Part shown: one piece after another, positions 6,698 to 55,192 of the stretch
Numbering within the stretch: position 1 is the stretch's first letter
Layout: every line of letters begins with the position of its first letter
Origin: Flavobacteriaceae bacterium R38
Lineage (GTDB): Bacteria > Bacteroidota > Bacteroidia > Flavobacteriales > Flavobacteriaceae
Reading direction: 5' to 3'
Length of the DNA stretch: 64,000 bases
NCBI GenBank assembly: GCA_009901575.1
Contig: WXYP01000002.1
Coordinates: forward strand, 62,001 to 126,000
Notes under the pieces: generated by a model
Seen by the model: only the letters and a program-made list of their open reading frames with translations
Told to the model about the DNA's origin: nothing
Databases searched by the model: none
Position numbers and translations under genes: made by a program

Positions 6698-6949
6698 ATG
6701 AGAAAAGATATACATCCTGAAAATTATAGATTAGTTGCATTTAAAGATATGTCTAATGACGATATCTTTTTAACAAAATCTACTGCAGATACAAAAGAAA
6801 CAATTGAAGTTGATGGTGTTGAGTATCCATTAGTAAAGATGGAAATTTCAAGAACCTCTCATCCTTTCTACACTGGTAAATCTAAATTAATTGATACTGC
6901 CGGACGTATTGATAAGTTTAAAAACAAATACTCTAAGTTTAAAAAATAG
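6698..6949 (+). CDS. rpmE2: 50S ribosomal protein L31 type B
   Basis: An 83-residue L31 protein of the large ribosomal subunit. It begins [11 protein letters not shown] and carries the SHPFYTGK segment typical of L31. It contains no cysteine, so it belongs to the zinc-independent type B form rather than the four-cysteine type A. Its promoter matches the Bacteroidota consensus and it is monocistronic, ending at a strong hairpin terminator 30 bases after the stop. In bacteria with both forms type B is induced in low zinc. Many Flavobacteria carry only this form, so zinc control cannot be assumed. Confidence 0.97.
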
Positions 6950-6980
6950 GGTATTATCAAAATATAAAATATAAAATAAA

Positions 6981-7010
6981 AAAGCCTTCTGAAACAGAAG
7001 GCTTTTTTAT
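6981..7010 (+). terminator. Rho-independent terminator of rpmE2
   Basis: AAAGCCTTCTG and its partner around a short loop form a GC-containing stem, followed by a T-rich run. It lies 30 bases after the L31 stop codon. Confidence 0.9.
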
Positions 7011-7147
7011 TTTGCATTATATGAATAACAGTAGTCTCTAAAGAAGATTAATTTTTGATTTGGTAAAATAAATACAAAAGCTTAAAGTTTAATTGGTACG
7101 TTTATTCGTTAAATTTGCTGAGGTTTTTAAGAAGACAGTTTTTGAAT

Positions 7148-7450
7148 CATTGATTTGTTTGAGTGTTTAACTGTTACTCTTTTTTAAGAGCCAAGAACCA
7201 AGAACTAGTCGGGTTGAACTGTTAAACCGAATAATTGATGAAGTTGATTTGTTTAAGTGTCTAGTTTTTTTTCTTTTTTAAGAGCCAAGGTAAAATAACT
7301 GTCAACTGTTAACCGTAAACTGATAAGTAATTAATAATTTGTTGAAATGTTTATTTGTTGAATCGTTTAGAGGATACCTAATTTTTATATCCTCAACTAA
7401 CAACTAACAACTAACAACTAACAACTAACAACTAACAACTAACAACTAAC
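7148..7450 (+). repeat. Composite intergenic repeat, copy A, with heptamer tandem arrays
   Basis: This 300-base element is closely similar to one at 15235-15520. From left to right it holds an internal direct duplication (about 7148-7206 against 7236-7292, both ending in an AAGAGCCAAG segment). It then has short GAACCAA and CTGTCAA type 7-base repeats, a shared block around AAGTAATTAATAATTT, and a clean run of about eight CTAACAA units at 7394-7450. The run ends eight bases before the ATG of the GlmU-like gene. I see no ORF or terminal inverted repeats in it. The bases 7011-7147 before it hold nothing I can name. Confidence 0.85.
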
Positions 7451-7457
7451 ATTAGTT

Positions 7458-8633
7458 ATGAATTATATTCTATTTGATGGTACCGTACGAAATGCACTTT
7501 TACCTTTTACATATACCAGACCGGTAGCAGATATCCGAATAGGAATCTTAACTATTCGTGAGAAATGGGAAAAATTCTTGAACTATACGACAACAACTGT
7601 TACAGAAGATTATTTGTCTGATAAATATCCTATGGTAGAATTGGAAGAGAATATTCTCATCAATGCTTCTTTTTTACCAAACAAGGAAATTGTTAAGAAA
7701 ATAAAGAAATTAAAGAGTAATCAGGCTATTTTATATAACGATGAGGTCATTGCCTTTTTTACTACAGCTACCCAGGAAGAAGTAGATTTTGAAACCTATG
7801 AAACCGTAGAGTTTAAAGAAGAAATTATTCGTATAGAAAATAACTGTGATATTTTTTCTAAAAATAAGGAAGCTATTGAAGCCGATTTTGAATTGCTTAC
7901 TTCAGGACGAGAGAGCATGCCAATTCCTGAAGGTGTTAATGTGGTTAATCCGGAGCGTATTTTTATTGAAGAAGGAGCCAAGCTTACATTTTGCACGTTA
8001 AATGCTTCTTCCGGACCAATTTATGTTGGAAAGAATTCAGAAATCATGGAGGGGAGCTTTGTTAGAGGCGGATTGGCATTATGTGAAGGTGCACAATTAA
8101 AAATGGGGGCTAAGGTTTATGGAGCAACTACAGTAGGCCCTTATAGTAAGATAGGAGGAGAGGTAAATAATTCTGTCATATTTGGATATTCAAATAAAGG
8201 ACATGACGGTTTCCTTGGCAATTCGGTTTTAGGGGAGTGGTGTAACCTTGGTGCAGATACTAATACCTCAAACTTAAAAAACAATTATGCAGAGGTAAGG
8301 CTCTGGAATTATGAAACTGAAGGTTTTGCCCGTACCGGATTACAGTTTTGTGGTTTAATGATGGGAGATCACAGTAAATGCGGAATTAATACAATGTTTA
8401 ATACGGGTACTGTGGTTGGAGTAAGTGCCAATATATTTGGTAGCGGATTTCCAAGAAATTTTGTGCCAAGCTATAGCTGGGGAGGAGCTTCGGGGTTTAC
8501 TACATTTCTAACCCGTAAAGCTTTTGAAGTTTCAGAAGTGGTAATGAAACGACGTGGTATTGAATTTACCGATCAGGATAAAGCTATTTTAGAACATATT
8601 TTTGAGGAGACTAAAAAATGGCGTAAAGAATAA
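7458..8633 (+). CDS. GlmU-like sugar nucleotidyltransferase with left-handed beta helix
   Basis: A 391-residue protein of the alternative bacterial GlmU-like family found in Bacteroidota (TIGR03991 type). The N-terminal half starts MNYILFDG and resembles a reduced nucleotidyltransferase domain, with LLPFTYTRPVAD at about 15-26. Residues from about 160 to 350 form hexapeptide-type repeats of a left-handed beta helix, as in acetyltransferases that act on glucosamine 1-phosphate. The likely role is UDP-GlcNAc synthesis or a related sugar-nucleotide step, but activity is not proven for this subfamily. A heptamer tandem array ends eight bases upstream of its ATG. Its stop is three bases from the end of the convergent gene. 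Confidence 0.85.
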   Translation: MNYILFDGTVRNALLPFTYTRPVADIRIGILTIREKWEKFLNYTTTTVTEDYLSDKYPMVELEENILINASFLPNKEIVKKIKKLKSNQAILYNDEVIAFFTTATQEEVDFETYETVEFKEEIIRIENNCDIFSKNKEAIEADFELLTSGRESMPIPEGVNVVNPERIFIEEGAKLTFCTLNASSGPIYVGKNSEIMEGSFVRGGLALCEGAQLKMGAKVYGATTVGPYSKIGGEVNNSVIFGYSNKGHDGFLGNSVLGEWCNLGADTNTSNLKNNYAEVRLWNYETEGFARTGLQFCGLMMGDHSKCGINTMFNTGTVVGVSANIFGSGFPRNFVPSYSWGGASGFTTFLTRKAFEVSEVVMKRRGIEFTDQDKAILEHIFEETKKWRKE

Positions 8634-15194: not shown

Positions 15195-15234
15195 TTTATT
15201 GATAGGTTTTACTTTGTTTAACTTTTTTAGGAGA

Positions 15235-15520
15235 CAGTCGGGTTGAACTGTTAAATCGCATAATTAATGAAGTTGATTAGTTTATAGGTGTTTAACTATT
15301 TTCTTTTTTAAGAACCAAGAACCAAGAACCAAGGTAAAATTATAAATATAAAACTGTCAACTGTCAACTGTAAACAGATAAGTAATTAATAATTTATTGA
15401 AATGTTTATTTGTCGAATCATTTAGAGTATACATGTTTTTATACCTTCAACTAACAACTAACAACTAACAACTAACAACTAACAACTAACAACTAACAAC
15501 TAACAACTAACAACTAACAA
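15235..15520 (+). repeat. Composite intergenic repeat, copy B, with heptamer tandem arrays
   Basis: This is homologous to copy A (7148-7450) over most of its length, starting with a shared AGTCGGGTTGAACTGTTAAA segment. It carries three different 7-base arrays: about three AGAACCA units near 15310-15333, about three AACTGTC units near 15352-15375, and roughly ten CTAACAA units at 15448-15520. The last array runs directly into the TAG stop of the minus-strand gene that ends at 15521. Copy number of each array differs from copy A, as expected of slippage. Confidence 0.87.
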
Positions 15521-16036
15521 CTAGATCTTCTTCATCTGTTGCTGCATCATCTTAATCTGATCTGTCAGCATATTGTGTTTATCTAATTTCTTAGCTTCAT
15601 TTAATAGGGTAGTAGCTTCTCTTTTTCTTCTTTTTTGCATAGATATTCCTGCAAGACTAAGTTTGGCCATGGCAATGTCATAATCCATAGTCAATCCAAG
15701 CTTTAAAGCTTTTTTAAAGTACTTTTCAGCTTGCGTCAGATTGGTTTGTGAAGTAATAATACCGTGCATATAGTTATAGTATCCTTGCTGCTTGGTAATA
15801 AGTGCTGCTTCAGGGTTTTTGATTTTACTCAACCATTTTTGAACTCCCTGCATATCCTGCTTACGCATTCTTAAAAAAGCCAATAAAATAATCTCATTCC
15901 TGAAGTATAGAAAAATGAAAACAAAAGAAATAAGAATTAAAAAGATACCGTTACCAATTGCACCTTCTGTAAACTGCCATACGGCTAAACCTATAACAAT
16001 AGCAGCTAATATTAGCTTGAAATTTTTATTAAACAT
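15521..16036 (-). CDS. TPR-containing membrane protein (171 aa)
   Basis: Two hydrophobic segments at about 9-24 and 28-46 form a membrane hairpin. The remaining 120 residues read as TPR-like helix pairs, including KYFKKALKLGLTMDYDIAMAKLS. Function is unknown; such proteins usually serve as protein-binding scaffolds. Its stop codon abuts a heptamer tandem repeat, so repeat expansion or loss could change its 3' end. It lies five bases after the DUF6263-like gene on the same strand and is probably co-transcribed with it. Confidence 0.75.
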   Translation of the reverse strand: MFNKNFKLILAAIVIGLAVWQFTEGAIGNGIFLILISFVFIFLYFRNEIILLAFLRMRKQDMQGVQKWLSKIKNPEAALITKQQGYYNYMHGIITSQTNLTQAEKYFKKALKLGLTMDYDIAMAKLSLAGISMQKRRKREATTLLNEAKKLDKHNMLTDQIKMMQQQMKKI

Positions 16037-25358: not shown

Positions 25359-25499
25359 TTCCTGTTTTCCTGTAGTATAGTAAACCTACTTTTTTCTTTT
25401 TAATATTAATTAATGATGAATTGTCAAGTTGTTGAATCGTTAAACTTTTAATATCTATAACAAATTACTTTTGCTGGTGTATTATAAATTTTCAAACTT

Positions 25500-25569
25500 T
25501 TACTCTCCAACTCTCCAACTCTCCAACTCTCCAACTCTCCAACTCTCCAACTCTCCAACTCTCCAACTT
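25500..25569 (+). repeat. Octamer tandem repeat inside the B12 transport operon
   Basis: About eight units of TCTCCAAC run from 25503 to 25567, directly before the TAG stop of the minus-strand permease gene (25570). The sequence upstream (about 25410-25500) has TTGTTGAATCGTTAAACTTTTAAT, recalling the composite repeats at 7.2 and 15.3 kb, but the tandem unit is 8 bp and different in sequence. Confidence 0.9.
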
Positions 25570-53395: not shown

Positions 53396-55192
53396 TTAAT
53401 ATCTTTTTTTCTTTCCTCCTCTAAAAGAGCCACCTTTAGAGCTATCTTTTCTTCTGAAATCTGAAGAAGGTTTTCCATCTCTTCGATCTCTGTTGCTTCG
53501 GTTTCTTCTATCTCCACCGCCACTATTTCCTCTTCTGTTTCTGTCTCCACCACGATTTCTTCGTCTTCCACCTCCTCCTGAGGGGTTGCTGGAAATTTCG
53601 ACATTGATAAAACGCCCATCGAGTTTAAAATCTTTAAACATTCCTAAGAGGGCTTCTGTATGAGCAACATCGGTATTGAAAAAAGAAAAACTTTCTTTTA
53701 CATCTACTTTAAATACATCATCTCTGCCAAAATCCATAGTATCACGTAGAAAATCTTTTAAGCTTCTCCAGTCATACCCATCACGTTCACCTACATTTAT
53801 GAAGTAGCGTACATCTCCACTGGTTGGGATTTTTCCCGGTTCCTGAGACCTTCTCCCTTCTTTGGATTCTACAACATTAAGGTCTTTGGCATTTTTATAA
53901 TAATTGAAGAAACGCCCAAATTCTACAGAAACCATTTTCTTGATTAATTCTTCACGATCTATACCACTAAGAACATCGTTTATTGCAGGTAAATAATGAT
54001 CAATTTCTTCATTGATCTCTGTATTTTTAATTTTGCTGGCTAAGTGATATAATTGAATTTCACAAATCTCAATATTCGTTGGGATTTTTTTCGCTATGAA
54101 TTGCTTTTTGATGATTTTTTCAATCGACCGGATTTTACGAATCTCACTCTTAGGTACAATAACCATTGAAATTCCTGATTTTCCGGCTCTTCCTGTTCTT
54201 CCACTACGGTGTGTATACGTTTCTACTTCATCAGGTAATTGATAGTTGATAACGTGTGTGACATCATCTACATCAATACCTCTTGCCGCAACATCTGTAG
54301 CAACTAACATTTGAATTTGACGGGACCTGAACGATTTCATAACCATATCACGTTGATTCTGACTTAAATCTCCGTGTAATGCACCGGCACTATACCCGTC
54401 TTCAATTAATTTCTCGGCTACATTTTGAGTATCTCTTTTAGTTCGGCAAAAAACTACAGAAAAAATATCCGGATTTGCATCTGCCAATCTTTTTAAAGCC
54501 AGGTATCGATCTCTACCGCTTACCAAATAATATTCATGCTGAACAGTATCTGAACCCGAATTTTTAGCTCCTACGGTTATCTCGATAGGTTTATACATGA
54601 ATTTTTTAGCTATGGTAGATACCTCTTTGGGCATTGTAGCAGAAAATAACCAGGTATTTTTTTCATCGGGAGTATGAGAAAGGATAGAGGTAATATCTTC
54701 ATAGAACCCCATATTTAGCATTTCATCGGCCTCATCCAATACACAATATTCAATTTTGGTAATGTTTACCAAAGACCTGTTGATCATGTCCTGCATTCTC
54801 CCGGGTGTAGCCACAATAATTTGTGCCCCTCTTTTTACTTGTTTAGCCTGGTCTGTAATGCTGGCACCACCATAAATAGCAACTACGTTTAATCCTTTGG
54901 TGTATTTAGCGTAATTTTTAATTTCATTGGTAATCTGTAGGCACAGCTCCCTGGTAGGAGATAAAATAAGTGCCTGTGTTGTTCTGCTGTCTGCATTAAT
55001 CTTTTGAATTAACGGAAAACCAAAAGCAGCTGTTTTACCGGTACCGGTTTGTGCTAAAGCAACCAGATCTGTTTCTTGATCTAGTAATATCGGAATTGCC
55101 TTTTCTTGAACTTCGGATGGTGTCTCAAATCCCATATCATTTACAGCCTGTATAAGCTGTTCATCCAATCCTAGTATTTCAAATTTATTCAT
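53396..55192 (-). CDS. DEAD-box RNA helicase with DbpA RNA-binding domain
   Basis: A 598-residue helicase. Motif I AQTGTGKT (about 45-52), motif II DEAD near 153, SAT near 184 and the HRSGRTGRAGK motif VI near 335 are complete. A DbpA-like RNA-binding domain follows (about 460-545), and the C-terminal 50 residues are rich in Arg, Gly, Asn and Ser, an RGG-type RNA-binding tail. It acts in ribosome assembly or mRNA turnover in the cytoplasm and is comparable to DeaD/CsdA. The promoter core shares 19 bases with that of purB. Confidence 0.95.
   Translation of the reverse strand: MNKFEILGLDEQLIQAVNDMGFETPSEVQEKAIPILLDQETDLVALAQTGTGKTAAFGFPLIQKINADSRTTQALILSPTRELCLQITNEIKNYAKYTKGLNVVAIYGGASITDQAKQVKRGAQIIVATPGRMQDMINRSLVNITKIEYCVLDEADEMLNMGFYEDITSILSHTPDEKNTWLFSATMPKEVSTIAKKFMYKPIEITVGAKNSGSDTVQHEYYLVSGRDRYLALKRLADANPDIFSVVFCRTKRDTQNVAEKLIEDGYSAGALHGDLSQNQRDMVMKSFRSRQIQMLVATDVAARGIDVDDVTHVINYQLPDEVETYTHRSGRTGRAGKSGISMVIVPKSEIRKIRSIEKIIKKQFIAKKIPTNIEICEIQLYHLASKIKNTEINEEIDHYLPAINDVLSGIDREELIKKMVSVEFGRFFNYYKNAKDLNVVESKEGRRSQEPGKIPTSGDVRYFINVGERDGYDWRSLKDFLRDTMDFGRDDVFKVDVKESFSFFNTDVAHTEALLGMFKDFKLDGRFINVEISSNPSGGGGRRRNRGGDRNRRGNSGGGDRRNRSNRDRRDGKPSSDFRRKDSSKGGSFRGGKKKRY

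Follow-up and report, generated by a model that had tools for sequence, protein, structure and literature searches.

Why several different simple-sequence arrays should share one unit length within a single intergenic element, and by what process such an element is made, is the question raised by a repeat in Flavobacteriaceae bacterium R38. The repeat lies near the left end of the window, the whole stretch of 64,000 nucleotides that was analysed. The original prediction had described it as a composite of heptamer arrays with a second copy at 15.2 kb.

Two composite elements and their parts

The whole composite repeat, here E1, occupies 7148–7451 on the plus strand, as defined by sequence, BLAST and comparison with relatives. 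The second site, E2, fills the spacer between two convergent genes at 15229–15523, also on the plus strand (BLAST, open reading frames). A BLAST search of 7140–7450 against the genome of the strain aligns query bases 68–311, and thus window positions 7207–7450, with 15236–15504 at 82% identity, and both sites terminate in a CAACTAA array, with 8.3 copies in E1 and 10.9 copies in E2 according to Tandem Repeats Finder (TRF). The homology of the two sites and the difference in array copy number, both put forward in the original prediction, are thereby confirmed.

Read from left to right on the plus strand, E1 consists of an AAGAACC array of 2.9 copies (7186–7205, TRF), a degenerate G/T-rich octamer ladder with a T-run, at which the homology to 15236 begins (7207–7287, BLAST and lag analysis), degenerate AACTGTC-type heptamers (7295–7326, TRF), a conserved right-hand octamer module of the form TTTGTTGA AATGTTTA TTTGTTGA ATCGTTTA (7331–7369, alignment, profile and lag analysis), a T-rich linker of 24 bases (7370–7393, linker measurement) and the terminal CAACTAA array (7394–7451, TRF), which stops 6 bases short of the ATG at 7458. 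TRF reads the inner heptamers of E1 as 3.7 copies of AACTGTA with a 78% match, and neither these nor the AAGAACC units of E1 are more than scarcely repeats. In other genomic copies AAGAACC reaches 8.3 and 5.1 copies, and an extra unit, CTACAGT, reaches 6.3. In E2, again on the plus strand, the AAGAACC array (15310–15333) and the AACTGTC array (15352–15375) each have 3.4 copies (TRF), and they are followed by the octamer module (15390–15424, profile), a T-rich linker of 23 bases (15425–15447, linker measurement) and the terminal array (15448–15523, TRF), which enters the stop codon of a gene on the minus strand (15521–16036).

A perfect ACTCTCCA octamer array of 8.4 copies (TRF) lies at 25502–25568 on the plus strand, in the same direction as E1 and E2 and 1 base from the next coding sequence, and a short degenerate octamer stretch read by eye lies to its left at 25414–25449 (plus strand). 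Together with its upstream octamers the array forms a further family member, one whose terminal unit has 8 bases. Elsewhere in the window, at 53506–53568, a 33-base unit is repeated in tandem about 1.9 times, outside the 7/8-base family.

No open reading frame of at least 80 amino acids, in a list made by a simple script and not by a gene finder, fills E1 or E2. A search for inverted repeats finds only scattered imperfect pairs of 10–18 bases (five in E1, one in E2), none of which frames either element, and the other genomic copies, read by eye, show no terminal inverted repeats. An insertion sequence or a miniature inverted-repeat transposable element (MITE) is therefore rejected, and the earlier judgement that this is no typical insertion sequence stands. 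The empty sites in relatives have diverged too far for a target-site duplication to be visible. Rfam 15 gives 25 matches at E<=1 in the E1 region, all of them to the left of E1 (6944–7066) and all below the gathering score. Since the right ends share no fold and Rfam has no match inside E1, a structured RNA is also rejected, as is a plasmid- or phage-borne repeat, no plasmid or phage match having been found.

A dispersed family with periods of seven and eight bases

The genome of the strain is a 3.94-Mb draft in 11 contigs (C1–C11). E1 as a BLAST query finds 14 matches in it, and a profile of the right-hand module (76 positions, built from the aligned right-hand part of 12 copies) finds 24 matches at E<0.01, which were grouped by hand into 20 loci; 12 of the 24 matches are the model's own training rows. 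E1 and E2 are therefore not the only two copies, and belong to a family of non-coding repeats dispersed over about 20 loci. Along the direction of fork movement the order of parts, 5' to 3', is degenerate G/T-rich octamers, a T-rich linker of 12–27 bases across the family, and a perfect A/C-rich array with a unit of 7 or sometimes 8 bases; E1 and E2 each consist of several such octamer-linker-array units in tandem. Most arrays carry the conserved octamer module on their left and so are not stand-alone arrays without a homologous flank. Counted by eye in the printed copies, there are twelve different 7-base units, nine of them terminal (CAACTAA, TCTAACA, TCTAACT, TTTAGCA, CCTGAAA, CCTGACT at three loci, CAAAACT, CCATCAT and CAACATT) and three inner (AAGAACC, CTACAGT and AACTGTC), together with three 8-base units (CAACAACT, CTCTCCAA and CTCAAATC). 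This variety in the printed contexts indicates that similar modules stand before many different units.

Exact arrays of period 3–25, with at least 2.8 copies and at least 19 bases, were collected from 1,221,571 bases (31% of the genome). There are 25 arrays of period 7, three of period 8, one of period 6 and none of any other period. The density is biased upward, the sample having been chosen partly around known matches (not by period): nine stretches are placed on known matches, the window itself holds three, and several of the spread stretches cover weak matches. In 421,571 bases, 19 exact arrays of period 7 and two of period 8 were found, where first-order Markov copies gave 0.4 and 0.0, and so tandem 7-base arrays exceed chance in length and number in this genome. 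Once the arrays are masked, what is left of 12 elements is self-similar at lags of 8 (z=10.2), 16 (z=6.0) and 24 bases (z=4.0), with nothing to speak of at lag 7 (z=1.1), although these z values overstate independence because the 12 elements are mutually homologous. The signal at lag 8 without one at lag 7 indicates that the DNA between the heptamer arrays consists of degenerate octamer ladders. In 695 other intergenic pieces of the genome (125,094 bases) there is no excess at lag 7 or lag 8, which rules out a 7/8-base period as a general trait of its spacers.

The distance from the last octamer to the array, measured for 19 arrays with the octamer end picked by hand for each, is 12–16 bases in nine, 21–24 in eight and 26–27 in two, and 17–20 in none; the classes are spaced about one unit apart. 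The claim that every array has a 7-base unit thus needs amendment: the period is common to units of differing sequence, but period 8 is equally part of the element. Because the period is shared though the units differ, a mechanism of unit length common to the arrays is favoured over chance, as had been proposed, and slippage or copying as that mechanism is an interpretation. The 8-base ladder between the arrays, the many further copies and the 8-base array at 25502–25568 had no place in the original prediction, nor had replication polarity and the stop at coding boundaries, for which the whole genome is needed.

Three contig ends lie inside arrays, namely the end of C11 (C11:113655), the start of C4 (C4:1) and the end of C6 (C6:543049), indicating that the assembly broke at these repeats. 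C11 and C4, which both carry a TCTAACA array at these ends, are probably adjacent.

Direction relative to replication and placement at coding edges

The reference for polarity was the third-codon GC skew, taken separately from plus- and minus-strand open reading frames for each contig segment. Its sign is clear for 10 segments (|z| 5.4–15), being positive in C3, C4 before 500 kb, C5, C6, C8, C9 and C11 and negative in C7, C10 and C4 beyond 500 kb; single stretches waver (C5:1-20000 is negative, C4:200001 and C4:450001 are near zero). In most bacteria it is the leading strand that is rich in G. The modules follow the G-rich strand at 19 of the 20 loci (23 of 24 matches), and, as the rule predicts, the minus strand carries the sole locus in a negative segment, at C7:125.8 kb. 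Since contig orientation is arbitrary and a single locus lies in a negative segment, the polarity in this genome rests on many contigs. The exception, C3:681741, has octamers in the opposite direction and no array. When the 23 exact arrays with at least 3.4 copies are oriented by their C-over-G strand, 21 agree with the rule, one carries as much C as G, and one, which lies within a gene, disagrees. The last is a 3.7-copy CAAATCT array inside a long GTPase-like coding sequence (C3:957515-957540), the sole in-gene array of that length in the sample.

The direction of genes does not explain this polarity, because, of the 19 loci with a right-hand gene, 13 have it running against the array and six along it. 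Nor does strand composition, since the arrays are C-rich on the G-rich strand and simple composition predicts the opposite. The near-uniform orientation with respect to replication suggests that copying at the fork makes or spreads the element.

At 14 of 18 loci no more than 7 bases separate the far end of the array from the next coding sequence, and at 15 no more than 12, coding sequences being open reading frames called by the script mentioned above; the remaining three arrays are 37, 96 and 136 bases away. Three loci in contact with a contig end (C11:113595, C4:1 and C6:542992) were omitted from this count, and three of the 18 hold only about two exact copies. The combined probability of such placement is 3e-14, or 4e-11 without the three loci of about two copies, under a null of uniform placement that is crude. 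The gap is 12 bases for the array at C3:574.9 kb, and the left gap at C3:772062 is 288 bases. Of the 19 loci with a right-hand gene, 13 have an array that runs up to the stop codon of a gene on the opposite strand, and at the other six it reaches the start side of a forward gene.

Relatives and the wider distribution

In another genus, a genome assembled as a single contig of 4.13 Mb (G148) has array loci that agree with the skew in 10 of 11 cases, including all five at which the right-hand gene is not co-directional. These 11 loci come from 31 listed matches to a CAACTAA pattern and the period-7/8 arrays encountered, two period-9 arrays being omitted. The skew of G148 changes sign twice, first at about 1.8–2.06 Mb and then near 3.5–3.8 Mb, and eight of the loci precede the first switch. 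Several stretches have |z| <2, and those at 830 and 1568 kb have genes on one strand only; because the local skew is weak or one-sided in this way, the agreement of four of the ten loci depends on the stretches next to them. The sets searched contain one other genome of the same genus, G001, which carries many CAACTAA/CAACCAA arrays and no match to the octamer module; its arrays agree with the skew at 16 of 27 loci, which amounts to no clear polarity (27 hand-counted clusters on its contigs C1 and C3; eight on C2, where the sign of the skew is near zero, were omitted). In G024, a closed relative of 2.6 Mb, degenerate matches looked polar by eye and the skew pattern is unreadable. The results in G001 and G024 indicate that polarity is a trait of the arrays of some genomes and not of all heptamer arrays. 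In 400 kb of G024, with many stretches placed on matches, 28 exact 11-base arrays were counted against 18 of period 7 and nine of period 8, so that this genome favours another unit length.

Empty sites were compared for the two window elements, E1 and E2. E1 fills most of a spacer of 508 bases, which measures 74, 135 and 157 bases in G001, G007 and G020, respectively; all three of the spacers examined contain a terminator and no element, and the region at about 7013–7457 has no counterpart in G001. As for E2, the flanking convergent genes overlap by 4 bases in G007, 43 bases separate them in G020, and in G001 a different gene is present. These element-free sites indicate that E1 and E2 are gains in the lineage of the strain or, less likely, that they were lost repeatedly in the relatives. 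Of eight arrays of relatives that were checked, some likewise lie at a coding edge, the gaps being -1, 0, 4, 4, 19, 36, 63 and 90 bases.

Under stricter filters the full module profile matches four of 397 genomes of the family, that of the strain included, at E<=1e-4, which rules out the module as a family-wide element. An exact 23-base core (with two Y and one N) occurs in 58 stretches in a collection of 84,980 species, from which records of the same species may have been excluded; 57 of the stretches lie in records titled as Bacteroidota groups and one in a Chlorobiota metagenome-assembled genome. A further TTKAWYYG octamer is found within 100 bases in the same direction in 48 of the 58 stretches and in the reverse direction in 20, compared with 12% and 12% at random places. 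By eye, a few of the core stretches (L234, L276 and L277) join A/C-rich runs of 7 or 8 bases. The reverse octamers near core stretches, again by eye, sometimes form long A/T-rich inverted pairs near stop codons. Three TTKAWYYG-type octamers in a row are present in 24 of 395 genomes of the phylum, against three of 395 for a reversed control pattern, and 13 of the 24 are among 23 genomes of one genus, probably Flavobacterium to judge from record names. This pattern has no match in the genome of the strain because its own octamers are too degenerate. A loose CAACTAA pattern matches 83 of 119 genomes, a figure that overstates the number with specific arrays because the control pattern also matches in many, exceeding the real pattern in some.

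At C8:87203 in the strain and at 837373 and 848737 in G148, short TTAG-type heptamers followed by CTAA-type heptamers stand just before genes that look ribosomal by sequence; those at C8:87 kb are on the G-rich strand. The likeness of this stretch in two genera hints that the repeat had an earlier form, which may have been functional.

Known systems, origin and significance

Heptamer direct repeats, TAACTGA among them, have been described in Beggiatoaceae, Cyanobacteria and Bacteroidetes by MacGregor in 2015 (PMC4679880), including Flavobacteriaceae spacers with several different heptamers in Gramella forsetii and Aequorivita sublithincola. In the parts of that paper compared, relatives' spacers are shorter and without obvious repeats in three of four sets, and a Microcystis repeat set between stop codons shares one chromosome orientation. 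The general phenomenon of heptamer excess and of mixed heptamers in flavobacterial spacers is therefore not new (PMC4679880; related reports are PMC4692102, PMC4596501 and PMC6749651). MacGregor's repeats resemble the present family in forming heptamer arrays in spacers, frequently next to a coding boundary, but the Gramella and Aequorivita arrays run forward to the downstream open reading frame, whereas the arrays described here follow replication (six of 19 forward, 13 against), and neither octamer ladders nor a dispersed octamer module appear in the parts of the paper compared, nor is replication polarity tested there. As to whether a known element already covers these repeats, the mixed heptamer spacers were thus in print, whereas the 8+7 composite architecture and the replication polarity were found neither in those parts nor elsewhere in the literature searched. 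TAACTGA is not among the units found here (exact arrays, 31% of the genome). The long simple sequence repeats (SSRs) of Mrazek 2007, as presented in the parts of PMC4679880 and PMC4692102 compared, share the dominance of heptamers, and the idea that 7 bases correspond to the contact length of the polymerase comes from that work; unlike them, the present arrays stand at set distances from a homologous, fork-oriented module of period 8. The GGGAATC and GGGGA(C/T)T heptamers of Xanthomonas and Nostoc likewise form many intergenic arrays per genome, with array lengths that vary between species, but they are G-rich, occur on both strands (84 plus and 102 minus in Xcc) and have no composite module in the parts compared (PMC4692102). 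BrickBuilt, a minisatellite within a MITE in Porphyromonas gingivalis, is also a dispersed intergenic element of Bacteroidota with a leader and an array of variable length, but in the parts of that report compared its unit has 23 bases and some copies have inverted ends, tabulated beside those of the IS5 family (PMC4596501).

The reading that we prefer, tentatively and with a probability of about 0.45, is slippage in steps of 7–8 bases on a fork-polar template, combined with dispersal of the modules in a way that keeps their orientation. Arrays would arise by strand slippage in such steps during passage of the fork and on a single template strand, most simply that of the lagging strand; selection at coding edges would halt both gain and loss of spacer DNA; and homologous modules may move between sites by template switching of nascent strands or by another single-strand process that preserves orientation. 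Against this reading weigh the lack of clear polarity and of a module match in G001, the unreadable skew of G024, the weak skew in parts of G148, the opposite direction of C3:681741, the presence of just one locus in a negative segment and the three arrays that end 37, 96 and 136 bases from a coding sequence. Somewhat unlikely by comparison is that these are ordinary heptamer microsatellites produced by slippage in neutral spacers, with the likeness of the modules due to a few old segmental copies and the polarity a by-product of strand composition. Such an origin would suit the period-7 arrays of G001, which have neither polarity nor a module match, and heptamers are the commonest class of long SSR in most genomes rich in repeats of 5–11 bases (Mrazek 2007, as given in the parts of PMC4679880 compared); it is contradicted by the C-richness of the arrays on the G-rich strand, opposite to the background skew, by the presence of one octamer module before many different units at preferred spacings, and by the lack of 7/8 periodicity in the other spacers of the genome.

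IS200/IS605-type transposons favour the lagging-strand template. A non-autonomous single-strand transposon of this type or of the REP/RAYT type, inserted into that template and later filled with arrays by internal slippage, would account for the fork-linked bias of module orientation and for the lineage-specific presence of the element, and a left-end motif near TTTWAGRAGACAG was seen by eye in three copies, with one mismatch in a fourth. We consider this origin improbable, because the genome has no Y1 transposase (PF01797), which the same search found in five of 14 control genomes, because no stable hairpin is common to the right ends (15 arrays, fold energies -1.0 to -9.6), and because the right ends vary in sequence and mostly halt at coding edges and not at a target motif. 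The missing enzyme leads us to reject a RAYT/IS200 origin proper, although a vanished or different HUH enzyme could still have stood behind a single-strand transposon. It is more doubtful still that the arrays serve as unstructured A/C-rich sites for translation or protein binding in mRNA leaders, as MacGregor proposed for TAACTGA. Some arrays do lie 2–7 bases before a start codon (C4:69394, C6:271443 and C8:87203), a placement also reported in the parts of PMC4679880 compared, but at 13 of 19 loci the array follows a stop codon because the right-hand gene lies on the opposite strand, and the lack of an Rfam match inside E1 adds to the case against a regulatory element. KOPS/AIMS-like signals that mark chromosome polarity for FtsK or a similar translocase would fit octamer units with leading-strand polarity, but are very improbable given only about 20 loci in 3.9 Mb, the degeneracy of the octamers and the 393 of 397 family genomes without a module match at the threshold used.

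Slippage on a fork-polar template has a bolder extension, which we regard as unlikely though worth stating, in which the octamer module itself is a cis-acting slippage site dependent on fork direction, stalling synthesis on one strand and amplifying 7–8 bases a set distance ahead, with the TTKAWYYG ladders across Bacteroidota as its wider family. Why long SSRs of bacteria favour 7 bases is explained in the literature searched only by the 2007 hypothesis, and here one chromosome offers about a dozen units beside one homologous module, in near-fixed fork direction and with a sharp stop at the coding edge at most loci. The family is therefore a natural comparison set for the strand that slips, the origin of the 7–8-base step and any inducing role of the flanks. 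The arrays are candidate variable markers, and they also account for some of the breaks between contigs (C11, C4 and C6). If the module were a slippage site, a different perfect array would be formed beside each copy and the spacer replaced up to the coding edge, and the family would represent a self-propagating remodelling of spacers without a protein of its own.
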